A DNA stretch of 64,000 bases from Sulfolobus sp. E5-1-F (GTDB lineage: Archaea; Thermoproteota; Thermoprotei_A; Sulfolobales; Sulfolobaceae), in the NCBI RefSeq assembly GCF_009601705.1, contig NZ_CP045687.1:1-64000 (forward strand). Reading direction: 5' to 3'. The notes beneath the pieces are model-generated. The model had not been told where the DNA came from. It was given only the letters and a program-made list of their open reading frames with translations, and made no database searches. The translations under genes and the position numbers were made by a program. Of this stretch, positions 28,180-36,168 are shown piece by piece (positions within the stretch are counted from its first letter, which is position 1; every line of letters starts with the position of its first letter).

Positions 28180-28482
28180 TTATTCGTTTACTTCTTGTAG
28201 TATTCTGTGTATTGGTCTACTCTCAATAATACTCTTACCGTAATTTATAGTACTCCTATATGCATTGCTGGAAATGAATTTCTTGAATGACTCTAAATCC
28301 TTCCAAACACTATAAATCAAATACTCTGAAGGATCATCAACATTCTTGTAAAGTTTAGCGTCAATGAAACCATCAGCATTAGCTTTTAAATAACTCAAAA
28401 CCTCCCTAAACTTATTTTCAAAATCCTTCTCGAAACCCCTTTTCACTTCATAATAAAAACCAACATTAATCATAATTAACAC
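28180..28482 (-). CDS. odsN: antibiotic-biosynthesis-monooxygenase (ABM) fold protein, downstream of soxN
   Basis: The 100-residue protein has the dimeric ferredoxin-like ABM fold: INVGFYYEVKRGFEKDFENKFREVLSYLKANADGFIDAKLYKNVDDPSEYLIYSVWKDLESFKKF. Members include haem-degrading and quinol monooxygenases, but also proteins of unknown role. It starts 1 base after the soxN stop, at GTG 28482 or ATG 28473. In S. acidocaldarius the gene after cbsA-cbsB-soxL2-soxN was named odsN; I use that symbol by position only. Being last in a quinol-oxidising complex operon, a role in quinone or haem handling is possible. Confidence 0.7.
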   Translation of the reverse strand: MLIMINVGFYYEVKRGFEKDFENKFREVLSYLKANADGFIDAKLYKNVDDPSEYLIYSVWKDLESFKKFISSNAYRSTINYGKSIIESRPIHRILQEVNE

Positions 28483-28483
28483 C

Positions 28484-30094
28484 TTATTTTCTATATATCA
28501 CATAATGATATAGGGAGATACCCTCACCTAGCATTAGAAAGATCAGCCCTAAATCTATACCAAATAAATTAGAGAAATATCCAGTAGCTGGTATCGTCCA
28601 TATTTGTGCTGCCAATATTATAGCGTAAATGAAGAGTAGAGCTACTATGCCTTCAGCTAGTTTCTTCTTCCACTCTGGCACTTTTTCTTCACTTATTGTA
28701 GCATTCTCGCTTCTTTGTTCCGCCTTTAATGCTATAGGTGCAATCTTTTTGGTAGTTAGTATAAATACTCCAGCAAGAGGGATAAATACTCCAACCGTTA
28801 AAATTGTAGGATTAGCCAGTAATTCGATCCCAGCTATTACAAACAGAGATGAAGCTAGGACAAATATCAATACTGTTATAGGACTTATTGTCCCTTTTAT
28901 ATTTCCTTTGTTATCTGTTCTTGGTCTGATCGCAGTAAGTCCTAAAGCTACTATTATGGCTGGTGGTAAATATACTAAAACTTGCTGACTAACTGGAATT
29001 TGTACGCCAGGAGTTAGGTCACCCCATATGGTTGTTTGTATTAAGTACGTTATCATTAGAATGCCTATCCCTATAAACACTTTCCTCTTTAACGGGTGGA
29101 GGTATTCTGTCCTATCGAGGAAAGGCACTAAGATAAGGTATATTAATGGAATAATTACGCCAATAAATAAGAATGCTAATACGTCACTAGTGAAGTCGGC
29201 TATTTTATACAAGAACAAGAAGAACCATGGTGGATAAGTTGTTATATGAGCTGCAGCAGGGCTGTTTGGTGGAGGGGCCGGTTTCGGATTTAAAAATGGA
29301 TTTAGTTGTTGTGGGAGTCCATTAAGGTATGCTAGGGCATTTGGTATTATGAGAATAAATCCCCAAGTTAAGAATACTAAAGACATCATATAAACGAAAT
29401 TTCTAGGCCACCACGGATTGAATTTCTGCCATTCTTCTTTAGTGTATACCGCTGGTATTTTATCCTTAACTTTCCTTGAAGGCATCATTCCGTAATGTTC
29501 AGCTAAAAAGAAGTGGAAAATGAATAGTAAGCCTATCAATGCGGTAAATATAATATGCCATGCTAGTACTCTACCGTAATCTCCAGCATCATAATTTCCA
29601 AATAGAAATGGAATGAAGATGGAAAGGCCTGGTATACTACTTATTATACCCTCCCCAACATCTACAGCACTAGTTGCCAACGCATCCCCTATCAAACTAT
29701 AACCCAAGAATGCAGTACCTAAAGTTAGGACTAACATTATTACACCAATTATCCACAATAATTCTCTAGGTTTCTTATATGCCCCAGCAAAGTAATTCCT
29801 GAACATGTGAACATAGGCTAAAATTATCATAGCATACGCTCCATATAAGTGACTGTAAAGCACAACTGAACCATATGGCACACTATTTATCACGAACTCC
29901 GTCGAATTGTATCCAGCTTGGGCATTATAATATAGCAAAAGGATAAGTCCGGTTATTACGGTGTAAATGAACGCAGAAGCCACTAACGCACCTAACCAAT
30001 AGTCTACTTTGTACATGTAATCTGGAGTTCTAAAGAAGGGTAAGTCATCTAATCCAAGTCTTTCTTTAAACCAATCCGATAATTTAGAGCTCAT
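28484..30094 (-). CDS. soxN: cytochrome b of the SoxL2/SoxN bc1-like complex
   Basis: The 536-residue membrane protein is the cytochrome b subunit. Two haem-binding pairs are visible with the standard spacing: His82/His96 in helix B and His180/His194 in helix D (both His-x13-His). The Qo loop is present as ITTYPPWFFLFLYK (about 300), where bc complexes have PEWY/PDWY. The C-terminal extension adds further spans, for about 12 in total. With SoxL2 it oxidises caldariella quinol and passes electrons to the Rieske cluster and, probably, to CbsA. It is the fourth gene of the operon. Confidence 0.92.
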   Translation of the reverse strand: MSSKLSDWFKERLGLDDLPFFRTPDYMYKVDYWLGALVASAFIYTVITGLILLLYYNAQAGYNSTEFVINSVPYGSVVLYSHLYGAYAMIILAYVHMFRNYFAGAYKKPRELLWIIGVIMLVLTLGTAFLGYSLIGDALATSAVDVGEGIISSIPGLSIFIPFLFGNYDAGDYGRVLAWHIIFTALIGLLFIFHFFLAEHYGMMPSRKVKDKIPAVYTKEEWQKFNPWWPRNFVYMMSLVFLTWGFILIIPNALAYLNGLPQQLNPFLNPKPAPPPNSPAAAHITTYPPWFFLFLYKIADFTSDVLAFLFIGVIIPLIYLILVPFLDRTEYLHPLKRKVFIGIGILMITYLIQTTIWGDLTPGVQIPVSQQVLVYLPPAIIVALGLTAIRPRTDNKGNIKGTISPITVLIFVLASSLFVIAGIELLANPTILTVGVFIPLAGVFILTTKKIAPIALKAEQRSENATISEEKVPEWKKKLAEGIVALLFIYAIILAAQIWTIPATGYFSNLFGIDLGLIFLMLGEGISLYHYVIYRK

Positions 30095-30131
30095 AAGAGT
30101 AAATTTAGGAAAAAAGGTAAAAAGTATTAAA

Positions 30132-30143
30132 CGTTGGACTTAT
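30132..30143 (-). promoter_or_regulatory. ATAAGTCCAACG motif, copy 3 (before soxN)
   Basis: Read on the minus strand, ATAAGTCCAACG touches the soxL2 stop codon and lies 38-49 bases before the soxN start. Exact copies lie before cbsA and at the end of cbsB. Confidence 0.55.
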
Positions 30144-31114
30144 TACGAGAAAGGATTCTCAGATTCTTGCACCGTTGTCTTATCACCAACAAGGCTACCA
30201 TAACTGGAGCTTAAATCTTCAGTAGGGTCATTTGCAGGTACACCATTATTTCCATTAGGATAAGTCGCAACTCCAACAGCACCTATAGCGTATAAGTAAT
30301 CACTAGATGAGTCCCATTCTAAAACTACTGATGGCAATGGTCTAACCGTTGGTCCCGTAAGTACTGCGCCTCCGTGATATGGGTCATAAGTTGAACCATG
30401 ACAATCACAATGTATTAATGCTGGAATCTTAGCTTGCTTTGCTGCTAGTAATGCAGCAGCCGTTAATTGGTCTGGTTCGGATGCAGTCAATTGAGCCGAA
30501 CTTACATATTGCGGAGGGAAAAAGTGAATGTAGGGTGGAGTACATCCTAAGTGTTGGCATATTGCAGAATAAGCTACTATTGACTTATTAGGTCCAACAC
30601 CTCCCGGGAATGTATAGGTTTTCCCAGTCTGAGGAACTACTACAGTTGTTGAAGGTATTTCTACCGGTTTTCCAGATGAGTCCCCTAGATTTATTAGAAA
30701 GTTTGGTTCACCCGTCATCGGATATTCAAATATAACTATAAATGGGCTATTAACTGGAATTTGCGATGCCTTAATCGGATTTCCGGACGAGTCCACTAAT
30801 AATGACTTAGGAAAACCACTGGTAACAGTAACTGTTGATGGTACAAATACTTTAAGTCCGGGTATAATACCAACTACTGCAGCAGCTGCTATCCCAAAGA
30901 TTAAGGATTTGAGGAACCTTCTTCTCTTTTCATCTACACTTCCAACGTTCTTATTTGTATAGTTAAATAAGTAATCTTCACCTTTATTTACAAATTCTTT
31001 TGGATCAAATTTTGTCTTAGGGTCTCTCATTTTACTAGTTAATTTCCTAATAAACATTAAATCTGAGTAGTCTAAGATAGGTCTATCATTTTTACCTGTC
31101 TTAAACCTTATCAT
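30143..31114 (-). CDS. soxL2: Rieske iron-sulfur protein SoxL2
   Basis: The 323-residue protein has a soluble N-terminal arm (1-60), a twin-arginine-type anchor (RRRFLKSLIFGIAAAAVVGIIPG, 64-86) and an outside Rieske domain. Cluster ligands are Cys186 and His188 (CQHLGC) and Cys236 and His239 (CDCHGS); Cys191 and Cys238 would form the stabilising disulfide. About 45 residues separate the two boxes, longer than in mitochondrial proteins but usual for Sulfolobus Rieske proteins. It carries electrons from quinol, bound by SoxN, to the exterior haem protein CbsA. Confidence 0.94.
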   Translation of the reverse strand: MIRFKTGKNDRPILDYSDLMFIRKLTSKMRDPKTKFDPKEFVNKGEDYLFNYTNKNVGSVDEKRRRFLKSLIFGIAAAAVVGIIPGLKVFVPSTVTVTSGFPKSLLVDSSGNPIKASQIPVNSPFIVIFEYPMTGEPNFLINLGDSSGKPVEIPSTTVVVPQTGKTYTFPGGVGPNKSIVAYSAICQHLGCTPPYIHFFPPQYVSSAQLTASEPDQLTAAALLAAKQAKIPALIHCDCHGSTYDPYHGGAVLTGPTVRPLPSVVLEWDSSSDYLYAIGAVGVATYPNGNNGVPANDPTEDLSSSYGSLVGDKTTVQESENPFS

Positions 31115-31150
31115 TTCGAGTCACAAAATATGAATAGTAAGACATACCTT

Positions 31151-32095
31151 TTATCCATTTCTCGTTGGACTTATGATATCAATTATACGTTTTTTACTTT
31201 CAATTTCACCGGATGTAATTACTAAAAAACCTATTATCGGAGTTAGCATGTATATTAATAACGAGAAACCATCAATTCCAAGAAATACAGTAGAAATAAT
31301 TAGAAAGTATCCAACCCCTGCACTAATATTACCCTTTATTAGAGCTATGAGAATTCCCCCTATACTTAAACCTAATACGATTACTAAGAGGGTAATATGA
31401 TAAGGATTGTACAAGTTTATCCCTAACATCGATGGTAATATCATATTCATTAAAATTTCTAGGTACCTATTCTGACTTATAATATTTTCAAAAAGTATAA
31501 ACGGTATAATGGAAAGGAGTCCAACTGATATTGCTACATAATTTCTTAGGGATTTAATTTTGCCCCATAATATTACATATGCCAAATATCCAGCAATCGA
31601 GATAAAGTATAATGTGAGGTAGCTTATAAATAACGCGTGATGAAAAATGTTAAGAAGTATTGATGCATATACTCCGAGATTTACTAAGATTAATGTAGGA
31701 ATTAAAAGAATGGATAATGGTGAGGATTTAATTAGGCCTTCAATAGTGCTTGCTAATCCTAAAACAAGAATTGCAATTTCAAGAGAATATAACCAAAAAG
31801 AGTTCTCATAGTTAGGTATTAACGTAATAAATGGTGAGAGAAAGAGAATGACTGTAAGGGGTATTAACGATTTGTAACTAAAGGATAAGATTATACTGAC
31901 TATCAATATAAATATGAAGAAGAAGTAGAACGATATATTCCCTATTAGAAGTAGTAAATTTGTATTAGAGATATTAAGAGGGAGTATTGAGGGAAACATG
32001 AATGCTTGTTTAAATGAAAACTGTAAAAAGCTGAAAATGCCAAGTAGAATTAAAAAAAGGTTTAAATTTCCTTTTAATTCATCTATCATTTTCAT
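31151..32095 (-). CDS. cbsB: CbsB, membrane subunit of cytochrome b558/566
   Basis: The 314-residue protein is almost entirely hydrophobic, with about 9-10 spans, and lies directly after cbsA with a 4-base overlap. In Sulfolobus this position and profile belong to CbsB, the partner of the haem glycoprotein CbsA. No cofactor motif stands out. Its 3' end contains a copy of the ATAAGTCCAACG motif as coding sequence (IISPTRNG). Identification is by operon order and hydrophobic profile. Confidence 0.85.
31163..31174 (-). promoter_or_regulatory. ATAAGTCCAACG motif, copy 2 (end of cbsB, before soxL2)
   Basis: The minus strand has TCATAAGTCCAACGA here, sharing 15 bases with the copy before cbsA. It lies within the last codons of cbsB, 49-60 bases before the soxL2 start. 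Confidence 0.55.
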
Positions 32096-33549
32096 CTTCT
32101 AAACACCACATAAAGTATTATTAGTGCTACTATAGCTATTACAATACCGACTACTGTCACATATATTGTTGCAGAAGATATACTTGTAATTGTAGTAACA
32201 GTGGTCGTGCTAGAAACTGATGTAACTGATGTTGTGCTAGTAGTTGTGCTAGTAGGTGGAGTAGTAACTAACTCTAATGTAAGGAAGTTAGGCGTGATAG
32301 ACTTATCAAATAATGTCTCACCAAGCCTTCCTTGCCATACTGCAAACGCTACGTAATAGGTTTTGCCAACTGTTATATTAGGCATCCAATTAGCATAAGC
32401 TGAAGGAACTGCAAGGGGTCTAGCGAACTCTACTGTCCAATAACCATCTTGATACGTTGCTCCAGTCCATATAAAGAATAGAGATCCGTTTAACCCACTT
32501 GTTGCTACTGGTGCATACCATATTCCAGCAGTATCTACTTCGTACATATTAGTATTATTAGTATATAATGGAACTGCAAATCCATGATTGCCAGGGTCTA
32601 CATAAGGTAATCCGGTTAATGATGTATTCTGCCATAGGTTCACTTTAAATGCTGGGTCATAAGTTATATTATTCCACGTAGCTCCAGATACCCACATCCA
32701 TATATTAGCAGCTCCACCGGGTTGTGCTAAAGAACCTCCAGCATCTTTAAAAGTTACACCATCAAATGTTTGATTAGGATACTCACCACCCATATTCATA
32801 TCATCTTTAGTTGGCGGTACTACGTTACCCATATACCACATTATAGCAGCTCTATCTGGATAATACCAAGTTGAATTAACATAATAACCGTAGAACATAC
32901 CATCAGTGTACAAGAGATCCTCCATTGGATCTGGAGAGTGCCATAATATTATTGTACCATTAGACGTTATAGTGATTTGCGTATTGTTTGGAGTTGGTAA
33001 CAAGATTCCAGAGTAGTTTAGTACTAATCTCCCTTGTATTGTTTCTCCATTAACTATAGCGAAACAATTAGTATAGTTCTTTTCTATCGTATAAGTAGTA
33101 CCAGGTGTAAGCATTATTAGTCTAAATAAACTTGGACCAGATGCCAGAGGATAAAGTCCTGCAGCAGCCGCTGACCAAGCACCGAAAGCGGGTTCTGGGG
33201 CGTACCATCTTTCTAATATTATTATCCAAGAGCCGTTCCACACTGCCTTAACTAAGAGATAATGAGTAAGTCCAGAAGTGGGTGCCATTGGTATATTAGC
33301 AGTCAATGATATGTTAATCCATGGTATTTGGCTCCAATAACTTGCAGAACCAGGATTCGACAAATCTGCACTACCAGCAACCTTATAAACGGGAATTTGG
33401 GGGGAAGTTTGAGCCATTGGAATATTCGCTAATCCCATTATAATACCTAAAAATAAAGCGAGCAAAAGAACGCTTAATGTATATTTTGACCTTCTCTTAA
33501 TGCTCATCCTCTCACAAAAATCGCTTATGTAGTTGTTGCTATTAAACAT
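32092..33549 (-). CDS. cbsA: cytochrome b558/566 subunit A
   Basis: The 485-residue protein is a membrane-anchored, exterior haem protein, heavily glycosylated in Sulfolobus. It has an N-terminal signal span ([21 protein letters not shown], about 23-43), a large domain with many Asn-sequons (NIS, NYT, NYS, NNT, NTS), a Thr/Ser-rich stalk near 430-460, and a C-terminal span ([24 protein letters not shown]). Two b haems are bound with unusual ligation in the known protein. The ATG at 33549 gives 14 extra residues; the ATG at 33507 ([10 protein letters not shown]) is an equally good start. A motif repeated within the operon lies 4 bases before 33549. Confidence 0.92.
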
Positions 33550-33553
33550 AAAT

Positions 33554-33565
33554 CGTTGGACTTAT
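33554..33565 (-). promoter_or_regulatory. ATAAGTCCAACG motif, copy 1 (before cbsA)
   Basis: On the minus strand ATAAGTCCAACG ends 4 bases before the cbsA ATG at 33549. The flanks extend the match with copy 2 to 15 bases (33553-33567). It sits where the leader or the transcription start of the operon should be. Confidence 0.55.
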
Positions 33566-33668
33566 GAGTAATCTAACGTGATGTGTTTAAGATAATTTTT
33601 CTCCTAACTTTGCTTATTATCTTTACCAATCTAAAGTTAACTTATTAGCCTTTAAGCTTAAATTAAAG

Positions 33669-35022: not shown

Positions 35023-36168
35023 ATAGTAGTTTCCTGAAAATGACGTCAATTTGAAATACCTTAAAAACTTTTTAGGATGATAATACCAAGACTAAACAAT
35101 GAAAATAACGAGTCTCTTCAACAGACGATTTGCAAGGGTAAGGAAGTACCTAGAGAAAGTGAAGAAGACGCTAGGCAGTAAATCCCTAGTGAAGTTACTG
35201 GGCGCATCTCTGATCGAAGATGGATCAATGAGGACCAAGTGCACCACGGCTGGAATTGACTACGAATACGCCTTGAGGAAGTTAGAGGAGGTCGCTAAGG
35301 TCGATCTAATCGAAGTAGTGAAGGAATTAGTAGGGGAACACAAGGTCCAGCTCTCAATAGACGACACACTAAACGAGAAATACTACGCTGAAGCCGCGTG
35401 GGTCTCAGCTCACATGACCCAATTCTTCTACTCCAGGAAGGATAAAACCTACATCCCAGCACACCAAATCCTTGTAGCCACAATAAGGGACTTGGAAACC
35501 AACGAGGTCTACTTGATCCACCTCGAGATCTACCTACCACAAAAAGTCGTGAATATCTTGAAACAAGAAGGGAAGCCAGTCCAGTTCAGAACGAAGATCG
35601 AAATCGCAATTGAGCTGATAGAGAAAGTGAGGAGGAGGCTTAACGTTAGTTCAATAGCGTTCGATTCGTGGTACGTGAACAGGAGAACTCTTCTGCCCGG
35701 TGTTGTTTCGGAACTTAAGGCGAGCGCGCGGGTTACCGAGGGAGGTAGATCCGTGCCGGTCGCCGAGTTCCCCGAGGGAGAGTTCTCCGTCACGTACCTC
35801 GGCGTTCCTATTAAATTAATTGTAGTTAATAATTATAAAGGTTGCGGGAGGAGGTACTTCTTCACGACCGACCTAACCATGACCTCTGAGGAGGTAATAA
35901 CGACTTGGGAGAATAGGTGGGATGTTGAAACTGTGATAAGGGATTTGAAGGTCCTAGGCCTTAGGAGCAGTTCGTTCAAGAGCGTAGTCAAGATCCTCGG
36001 ATACATGAAGCTTGTTGGCCTAGTTGTGAACTTCCTCCACATCTTGAAGTATGAGCTCGGTTCCCACCTTGGTGTAAAGGCTCTCTCAAGGTACTTGAAA
36101 AACGTTTATGGATACTTCCTTGACTATAAGAAACTATTCAGACTACGATAAAATCTATAAAGTACTAT
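35023..36168 (+). mobile_element. IS4/ISH3-like insertion sequence, copy B (1146 bp)
   Basis: This element is the same as copy A at 4691-5836 but in the opposite orientation. The target duplication is ATGT (35019-35022 and 36169-36172). Ends are ATAGTAGTTT at 35023 and the complement of ATAGTACTTT at 36168. The identical translation and exact co-extent show a recent transposition. It landed 49 bases before the phosphoesterase start, leaving that gene's TATA-like CTTAAAAT (36189-36196) outside the element. Confidence 0.92.
35099..36151 (+). CDS. transposase, IS4/ISH3-like, copy B
   Basis: It encodes the same 350 residues as copy A, with DD at 88-89, Asp189 and the W270-R273-E277-K284 signature. 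It is intact and covers 92 percent of the element. Its reading direction is toward the downstream phosphoesterase, so transcripts from the element could run into that gene. Confidence 0.93.
   Translation: MKITSLFNRRFARVRKYLEKVKKTLGSKSLVKLLGASLIEDGSMRTKCTTAGIDYEYALRKLEEVAKVDLIEVVKELVGEHKVQLSIDDTLNEKYYAEAAWVSAHMTQFFYSRKDKTYIPAHQILVATIRDLETNEVYLIHLEIYLPQKVVNILKQEGKPVQFRTKIEIAIELIEKVRRRLNVSSIAFDSWYVNRRTLLPGVVSELKASARVTEGGRSVPVAEFPEGEFSVTYLGVPIKLIVVNNYKGCGRRYFFTTDLTMTSEEVITTWENRWDVETVIRDLKVLGLRSSSFKSVVKILGYMKLVGLVVNFLHILKYELGSHLGVKALSRYLKNVYGYFLDYKKLFRLR

Follow-up and report, generated by a model that had tools for sequence, protein, structure and literature searches.

The bc1-analogue (cbs-sox) cluster of Sulfolobus sp. 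E5-1-F carries the same 12-mer, ATAAGTCCAACG, in front of three of its genes, and this sequence very probably (at about 0.88, on the sequence evidence) represents a conserved promoter-proximal regulator box repeated at three predicted promoters. The box would front the promoters of cbsA(-cbsB), soxL2 and soxN(-odsN), with its core AGTCCAACG at about -47 to -38 from the predicted transcription start, directly upstream of the BRE/TATA element. The copies, non-palindromic and all oriented alike, would each be bound by a sequence-specific transcription regulator. This regulator is most likely an activator rather than a repressor, because the box lies upstream of the BRE. Through the shared box the subunits would be made together, each promoter keeping its own strength. 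Positions given below are those of the window, that is, the whole 64,000-nucleotide stretch of DNA that was analysed.

The repeat in the window and in the genome

Gene identities in the cluster are backed in part by Pfam, which covers a CbsA-like haem protein, SoxL2, SoxN and an ABM-domain protein in the OdsN place; CbsB had no match in Pfam. Genes and boxes follow one another in the direction of transcription:

33554-33565, minus strand: box 1, ATAAGTCCAACG, upstream of cbsA; core AGTCCAACG at 33554-33562
32092-33507, minus strand: cbsA (Pfam EB_dh), likely start ATGAGC at 33507
31151-32095, minus strand: cbsB, overlapping the end of cbsA; no box upstream
31163-31174, minus strand: box 2, ATAAGTCCAACG, upstream of soxL2 and over the end of cbsB; core at 31163-31171
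30143-31114, minus strand: soxL2, Rieske protein (Pfam)
30132-30143, minus strand: box 3, ATAAGTCCAACG, upstream of soxN and over the soxL2 stop codon; core at 30132-30140
28484-30094, minus strand: soxN, cytochrome b (Pfam), its ATG 46 nt after the core start; predicted leaderless
28180-28482, minus strand: gene in the odsN position, ABM domain (Pfam); no box upstream

The original prediction had placed three exact copies at these coordinates, all on the coding strand, with 15 bases common to two of them; both statements hold, the two being the cbsA and soxL2 copies, which share TCATAAGTCCAACGA. It had also put the first copy 4 bases before cbsA, which is true for the first ATG of the frame (33549). 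This start is doubtful: cbsA most likely begins with ATGAGC at 33507, because its relatives align from there, and the box then ends 46 bases upstream. The odsN-position gene is probably read from the soxN promoter. Upstream of the cluster, a 350-aa frame at 35099-36151 is transposase-like by eye.

This is the sole 12-mer of the window to occur three times on one strand inside 3.5 kb. As had been supposed, the repeat is beyond chance: base composition predicts 0.008 exact copies in the window and 0.33 in the genome, against three found. Scattered copies across the genome had been named as an outcome that would speak against a functional element; a search of the 2.54-Mb genome recovered these three exact copies only, all within the cbs-sox cluster. 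Of the twelve one-mismatch copies elsewhere, 10 fall within coding sequence; the remaining two lie outside any 60-aa open reading frame (ORF) or overlap an ORF end.

Conservation and promoter geometry across the Sulfolobaceae

The comparison covered 30 other Sulfolobaceae genomes (31 with this one), including further named loci from Metallosphaera, Aramenus and Acd1; cbsA orthologues are present in 28 of the 31, and the region upstream of each gene was inspected in the clusters retrieved. The family-wide core is AGTCCAACG, usually ATnAGTCCAACG, and is commonly preceded by ATn. With at most one mismatch, it lies upstream of cbsA in 25 of 30 regions, of soxL2 in 22 of 24 and of soxN in 19 of 24, and is absent upstream of cbsB (0/30) and odsN (0/16). 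At the same threshold, 300 permuted cores matched 0.43 regions on average (maximum 11). The exact core is found 47 times in the 78 regions upstream of cbsA, soxL2 and soxN (permuted cores, mean 0.007), and exact cores in the operon loci number 47 on the coding strand versus one on the other. Among 70 collected copies, themselves chosen at two mismatches or fewer, five of the nine positions of the core never vary.

The box is kept in most of the 28 genomes that have cbsA: in S. acidocaldarius and S. tokodaii, the two species proposed for a conservation check, as well as in Metallosphaera, Acidianus-like and other genera. G042, G083 and G065 are taken here to be S. acidocaldarius, S. tokodaii and M. 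sedula, respectively; the S. acidocaldarius boxes read AGTCCAATG, AGTCCAAGA and AGTCCAACG. Some Metallosphaera cbsA boxes are degenerate (AGTCCAAYT). In G062 the sole exact box near cbsA (G062:C38:77143-77154, L045) is reversed and stands about 90 bp upstream, with no TATA-like element at the usual place. At outgroup SoxN loci from Thermoplasmata and Marsarchaeota, no box was found.

The box also persists where genes have moved. It is retained in the Acd1 genome (L121), where soxL2 lies apart from cbsAB, and both boxes are retained in G069, where soxL2-soxN is displaced by about 10 kb from cbsAB (L148, G069:C1:216000-224000). The genome with displaced soxL2-soxN has a second cbsAB copy elsewhere, each copy with a box (L148, L054, L066). 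One copy had been described as lying inside coding sequence. In this genome the soxL2 box does run into the end of cbsB; the overlap is incidental, because the box lies within a spacer in the Sulfurisphaera-like genomes G080-G083.

Downstream of each core, the following elements were predicted in the window:

33539-33546, minus strand: TATA-like box TTTAATAG, predicted cbsA promoter, 16 nt after the core start
33512-33515, minus strand: GTGA, where the cbsA message is predicted to start or to have its Shine-Dalgarno, at core start +47 nt as in relatives
31148-31155, minus strand: weak TATA-like box GATAAAAG, predicted soxL2 promoter, 16 nt after the core start
31121-31124, minus strand: GTGA, where the soxL2 message is predicted to start or to have its Shine-Dalgarno, at core start +47 nt
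30117-30124, minus strand: T-rich TATA-like box CTTTTTAC, predicted soxN promoter, 16 nt after the core start

The distance from the core start to the predicted start region in this window is thus 47 nt for cbsA, 47 nt for soxL2 and 46 nt for soxN. Across the Sulfolobaceae compared, a TATA-like hexamer begins at core+16 in most copies for all three genes, and GTGA ahead of the start codon, which would suit a message with a short leader, stands at core+46/47 in most cbsA and soxL2 copies. In many genomes the soxN box is positioned at -45 or -46 relative to the ATG, a distance that would fit a leaderless mRNA. This constant arrangement at three unrelated promoters, with start sites predicted, looks like that of a promoter-proximal regulator site. 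Promoter activity at the three boxes is itself predicted, and the weak TATA-like match at soxL2 together with the T-rich one at soxN in this genome counts against it.

A candidate binder and further box targets

A member of a family of small proteins, referred to here as Cys4, is the candidate binder of the box, with a likelihood somewhat short of even. The family is proposed because of its linkage to the cluster, its co-absence with the box in one genome and the occurrence of the box in the promoters of some of its own members. Cys4 proteins have about 165-200 residues and contain an SKSYxYF stretch, which looks helix-turn-helix-like by eye, and a Cys2 plus CxxCx5C arrangement; in a 20-sequence alignment C110, C113 and C119 are invariant and C2 is nearly so. 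The family had no convincing match in Pfam or NCBIfam, and a search for viral and plasmid relatives found none. Cys4 is essentially Sulfolobaceae-specific, with only weak relatives in one other family of the order. On a possible winged-helix fold, an AlphaFold model of one member, built from a two-sequence alignment, is of low confidence, with a mean pLDDT of 47.

Cys4 genes are present in 30 of the 31 Sulfolobaceae genomes. The exception is G032, in which cbsA is missing too and the box pattern has no match. In 15 genomes a member lies no more than about 3 kb from cbsA or soxL2, and in about 20 of 28 one is found at about 10 kb or less from the cluster; the cbs-linked type is encoded elsewhere in several genomes, this one included. 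A promoter-like extra box is found upstream of a small gene in four related genomes; this gene belongs to Cys4, which a neighbourhood comparison had independently picked out beside the cbs cluster in 8 of 14 genomes. Overall, 15 of 65 members, from several separate clades, have a box (two mismatches or fewer) that begins between -55 and -45 relative to the start of the member itself; permuted cores gave a mean of 0.52 and a maximum of 10 in 500. The box-bearing member of this genome is G000:1303497-1303991, with ATAAGACCAACA. Only one member exists in S. acidocaldarius, where its gene follows directly after odsN (G042:1638614-1639093), and only one in G074; therefore, if the family binds the box, that member must be the binder there.

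At about even odds, another regulator binds the box and Cys4 is linked to the cluster for a different reason, such as regulation of nearby haem or quinone genes. Consistent with this, G071 and G073 have retained the family and lack cbsA, and most members, the cbs-linked type included, have no box in their own promoters, some having a GTTAAC-like palindrome instead. However, cluster linkage, co-absence in G032 and boxes in members' promoters would be an unlikely combination for an unrelated gene. A palindrome-like sequence, GTTAACnnnGTTAA, recurs about 60-75 nt upstream of cbs-linked Cys4 members (for example, L300, L301, L305, L313-L316 and L321); it may be a second regulator box and is possibly related to the published HHC box.

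The metal chemistry of such a regulator can be considered from its cysteines. CxxCx5C is the spacing of three cluster ligands in FNR-type or MutY/EndoIII-type [4Fe-4S] proteins, a likeness accompanied by a weak profile match of the Cys region to MutY in the PDB (E 1.7). Unlike these proteins, to which it has no significant homology, Cys4 has its fourth cysteine at residue 2, and zinc is equally possible as its metal.

Other genes were considered as box targets. Terminal-oxidase promoters are ruled out, since none of 30 COX1 loci, drawn from 10 genomes, has a correctly placed box. A U32-peptidase-type gene adjoins or lies near the cbs cluster in several genera (loci L257, L259 and L260; G077:C1:1900067-1900951 and G079:C1:1947534-1948418), and in three genomes it has a AGTCCAAC box at -45 to -47. 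Only 3 of 26 such loci have the box in the right place when one mismatch is allowed, which rules the gene out as a family-wide target and makes it a lineage-specific one at most. That it may act in quinone hydroxylation like UbiU/UbiV is a guess by analogy. M. yellowstonensis has a promoter-like extra box upstream of an SRPBCC-type gene. In several genomes the surroundings of the cbs cluster include genes that resemble, by eye, those of radical-SAM/SPASM haem-maturation enzymes (for example, L188:512-1657).

Tentatively, then, Cys4 regulators almost confined to the Sulfolobaceae might read AGTCCAACG to tune cbsAB-soxL2-soxN to the redox, oxygen or iron state, several of them controlling themselves through the box, and the U32-type gene, maybe concerned with quinone maturation, might have joined the regulon in some lineages.

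Alternative readings, physiology and known systems

An extended BRE read by a TFB paralogue, setting promoter strength rather than regulation, would share several features of the box, namely its place right upstream of the BRE/TATA, its fixed orientation and spacing and its asymmetric sequence. This reading is improbable: with three exact copies genome-wide the box is very rare, and its pattern combined with a downstream TTWA matches the cbsA promoter only. A basal element would be widespread, whereas the box is absent from the terminal-oxidase loci tested. Its genome-wide rarity rules out a general promoter element.

The original prediction had offered an RNA processing or protein-binding site that sets subunit ratios, or an internal start signal. 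Protein binding and internal initiation are both supported and merge into one regulator box serving three promoters. A processing or RNA-protein site is highly unlikely. In its favour, the soxL2 and soxN copies, lying between cistrons, would be part of a read-through mRNA. Against it are the constant 16-nt spacing to a TATA-like element and the presence of copies ahead of cbsA, the first gene, and ahead of relocated soxL2, which put the box upstream of predicted starts. Each box precedes the predicted TATA box and start of its own gene, and thus would lie outside that gene's transcript.

The Lrs14-family nucleoid protein AbfR1 has a strong ChIP-seq peak by cbsA in Metallosphaera sedula, among the top 20 and located between cbsA and a neighbouring ATPase gene, but binds without sequence specificity (PMC12529230). 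It has only a very slight chance of being the main binder, since a sequence-strict box with fixed spacing would be left unexplained. A chance repeat or recent sequence duplication, favoured by the small copy number and nothing else, is scarcely credible given the 0.33 exact copies expected and a box conserved over genera while its flanks differ; rarity plus conservation rules out chance.

The preferred reading, a regulator box at three promoters, bears on how respiration is controlled. Sulfolobales have branched respiratory chains and change from one to another. In S. acidocaldarius, cbsAB-soxLN-odsN transcripts drop on nutrient depletion (PMC6335949) and in carbon overfeeding (PMC11486757), and in biofilm cells they drop with 1-butanol (PMC8208165). 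In transcriptomes the bc1-analogue genes go up and down in concert, which favours the preferred reading, and no control element or regulator for them is named in the papers searched. A search of the literature for the box sequence returned nothing relevant, and no archaeal regulator was reported to bind it in the papers searched. For species open to genetics (S. acidocaldarius, S. islandicus), the box offers an exact site to mutate, and Cys4, being linked to the cluster, offers a candidate regulator for the bc1-analogue genes.

As a kind, the regulator box is known; no prior description of this box, its regulon or the Cys4 family was found in the literature searched, which leaves most subscription journals outside. 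The UV-inducible promoter hexanucleotide of Sulfolobus, as excerpted from PMC5817253, is likewise a conserved short motif in co-regulated promoters of the same archaeal family; its gene set is the DNA-damage response, and it is set apart here by description, not by sequence. The HHC box with HhcR (Leyn et al. 2015, as cited in PMC12529230) is similar in being a Sulfolobales box from comparative genomics with a small winged helix-turn-helix protein proposed as regulator. By that secondary description, on which the comparison relies, it differs in having been proposed for genes of the 3HP/4HB cycle, and its proposed regulator, AbfR1, was later found to be non-specific.

What is particular here is the design: a single respiratory cluster, instead of relying on one operon promoter, has its control box repeated ahead of three of its genes. 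Archaeal upstream activator sites can lie next to the BRE/TATA, for example the upstream activating sites of the Ptr2/LrpA type. Such sites resemble the box in being short, gene-specific and right upstream of the BRE, where they are expected to help recruit TBP/TFB; in contrast to them, the box described here is asymmetric, strictly oriented and repeated at three promoters of one cluster.
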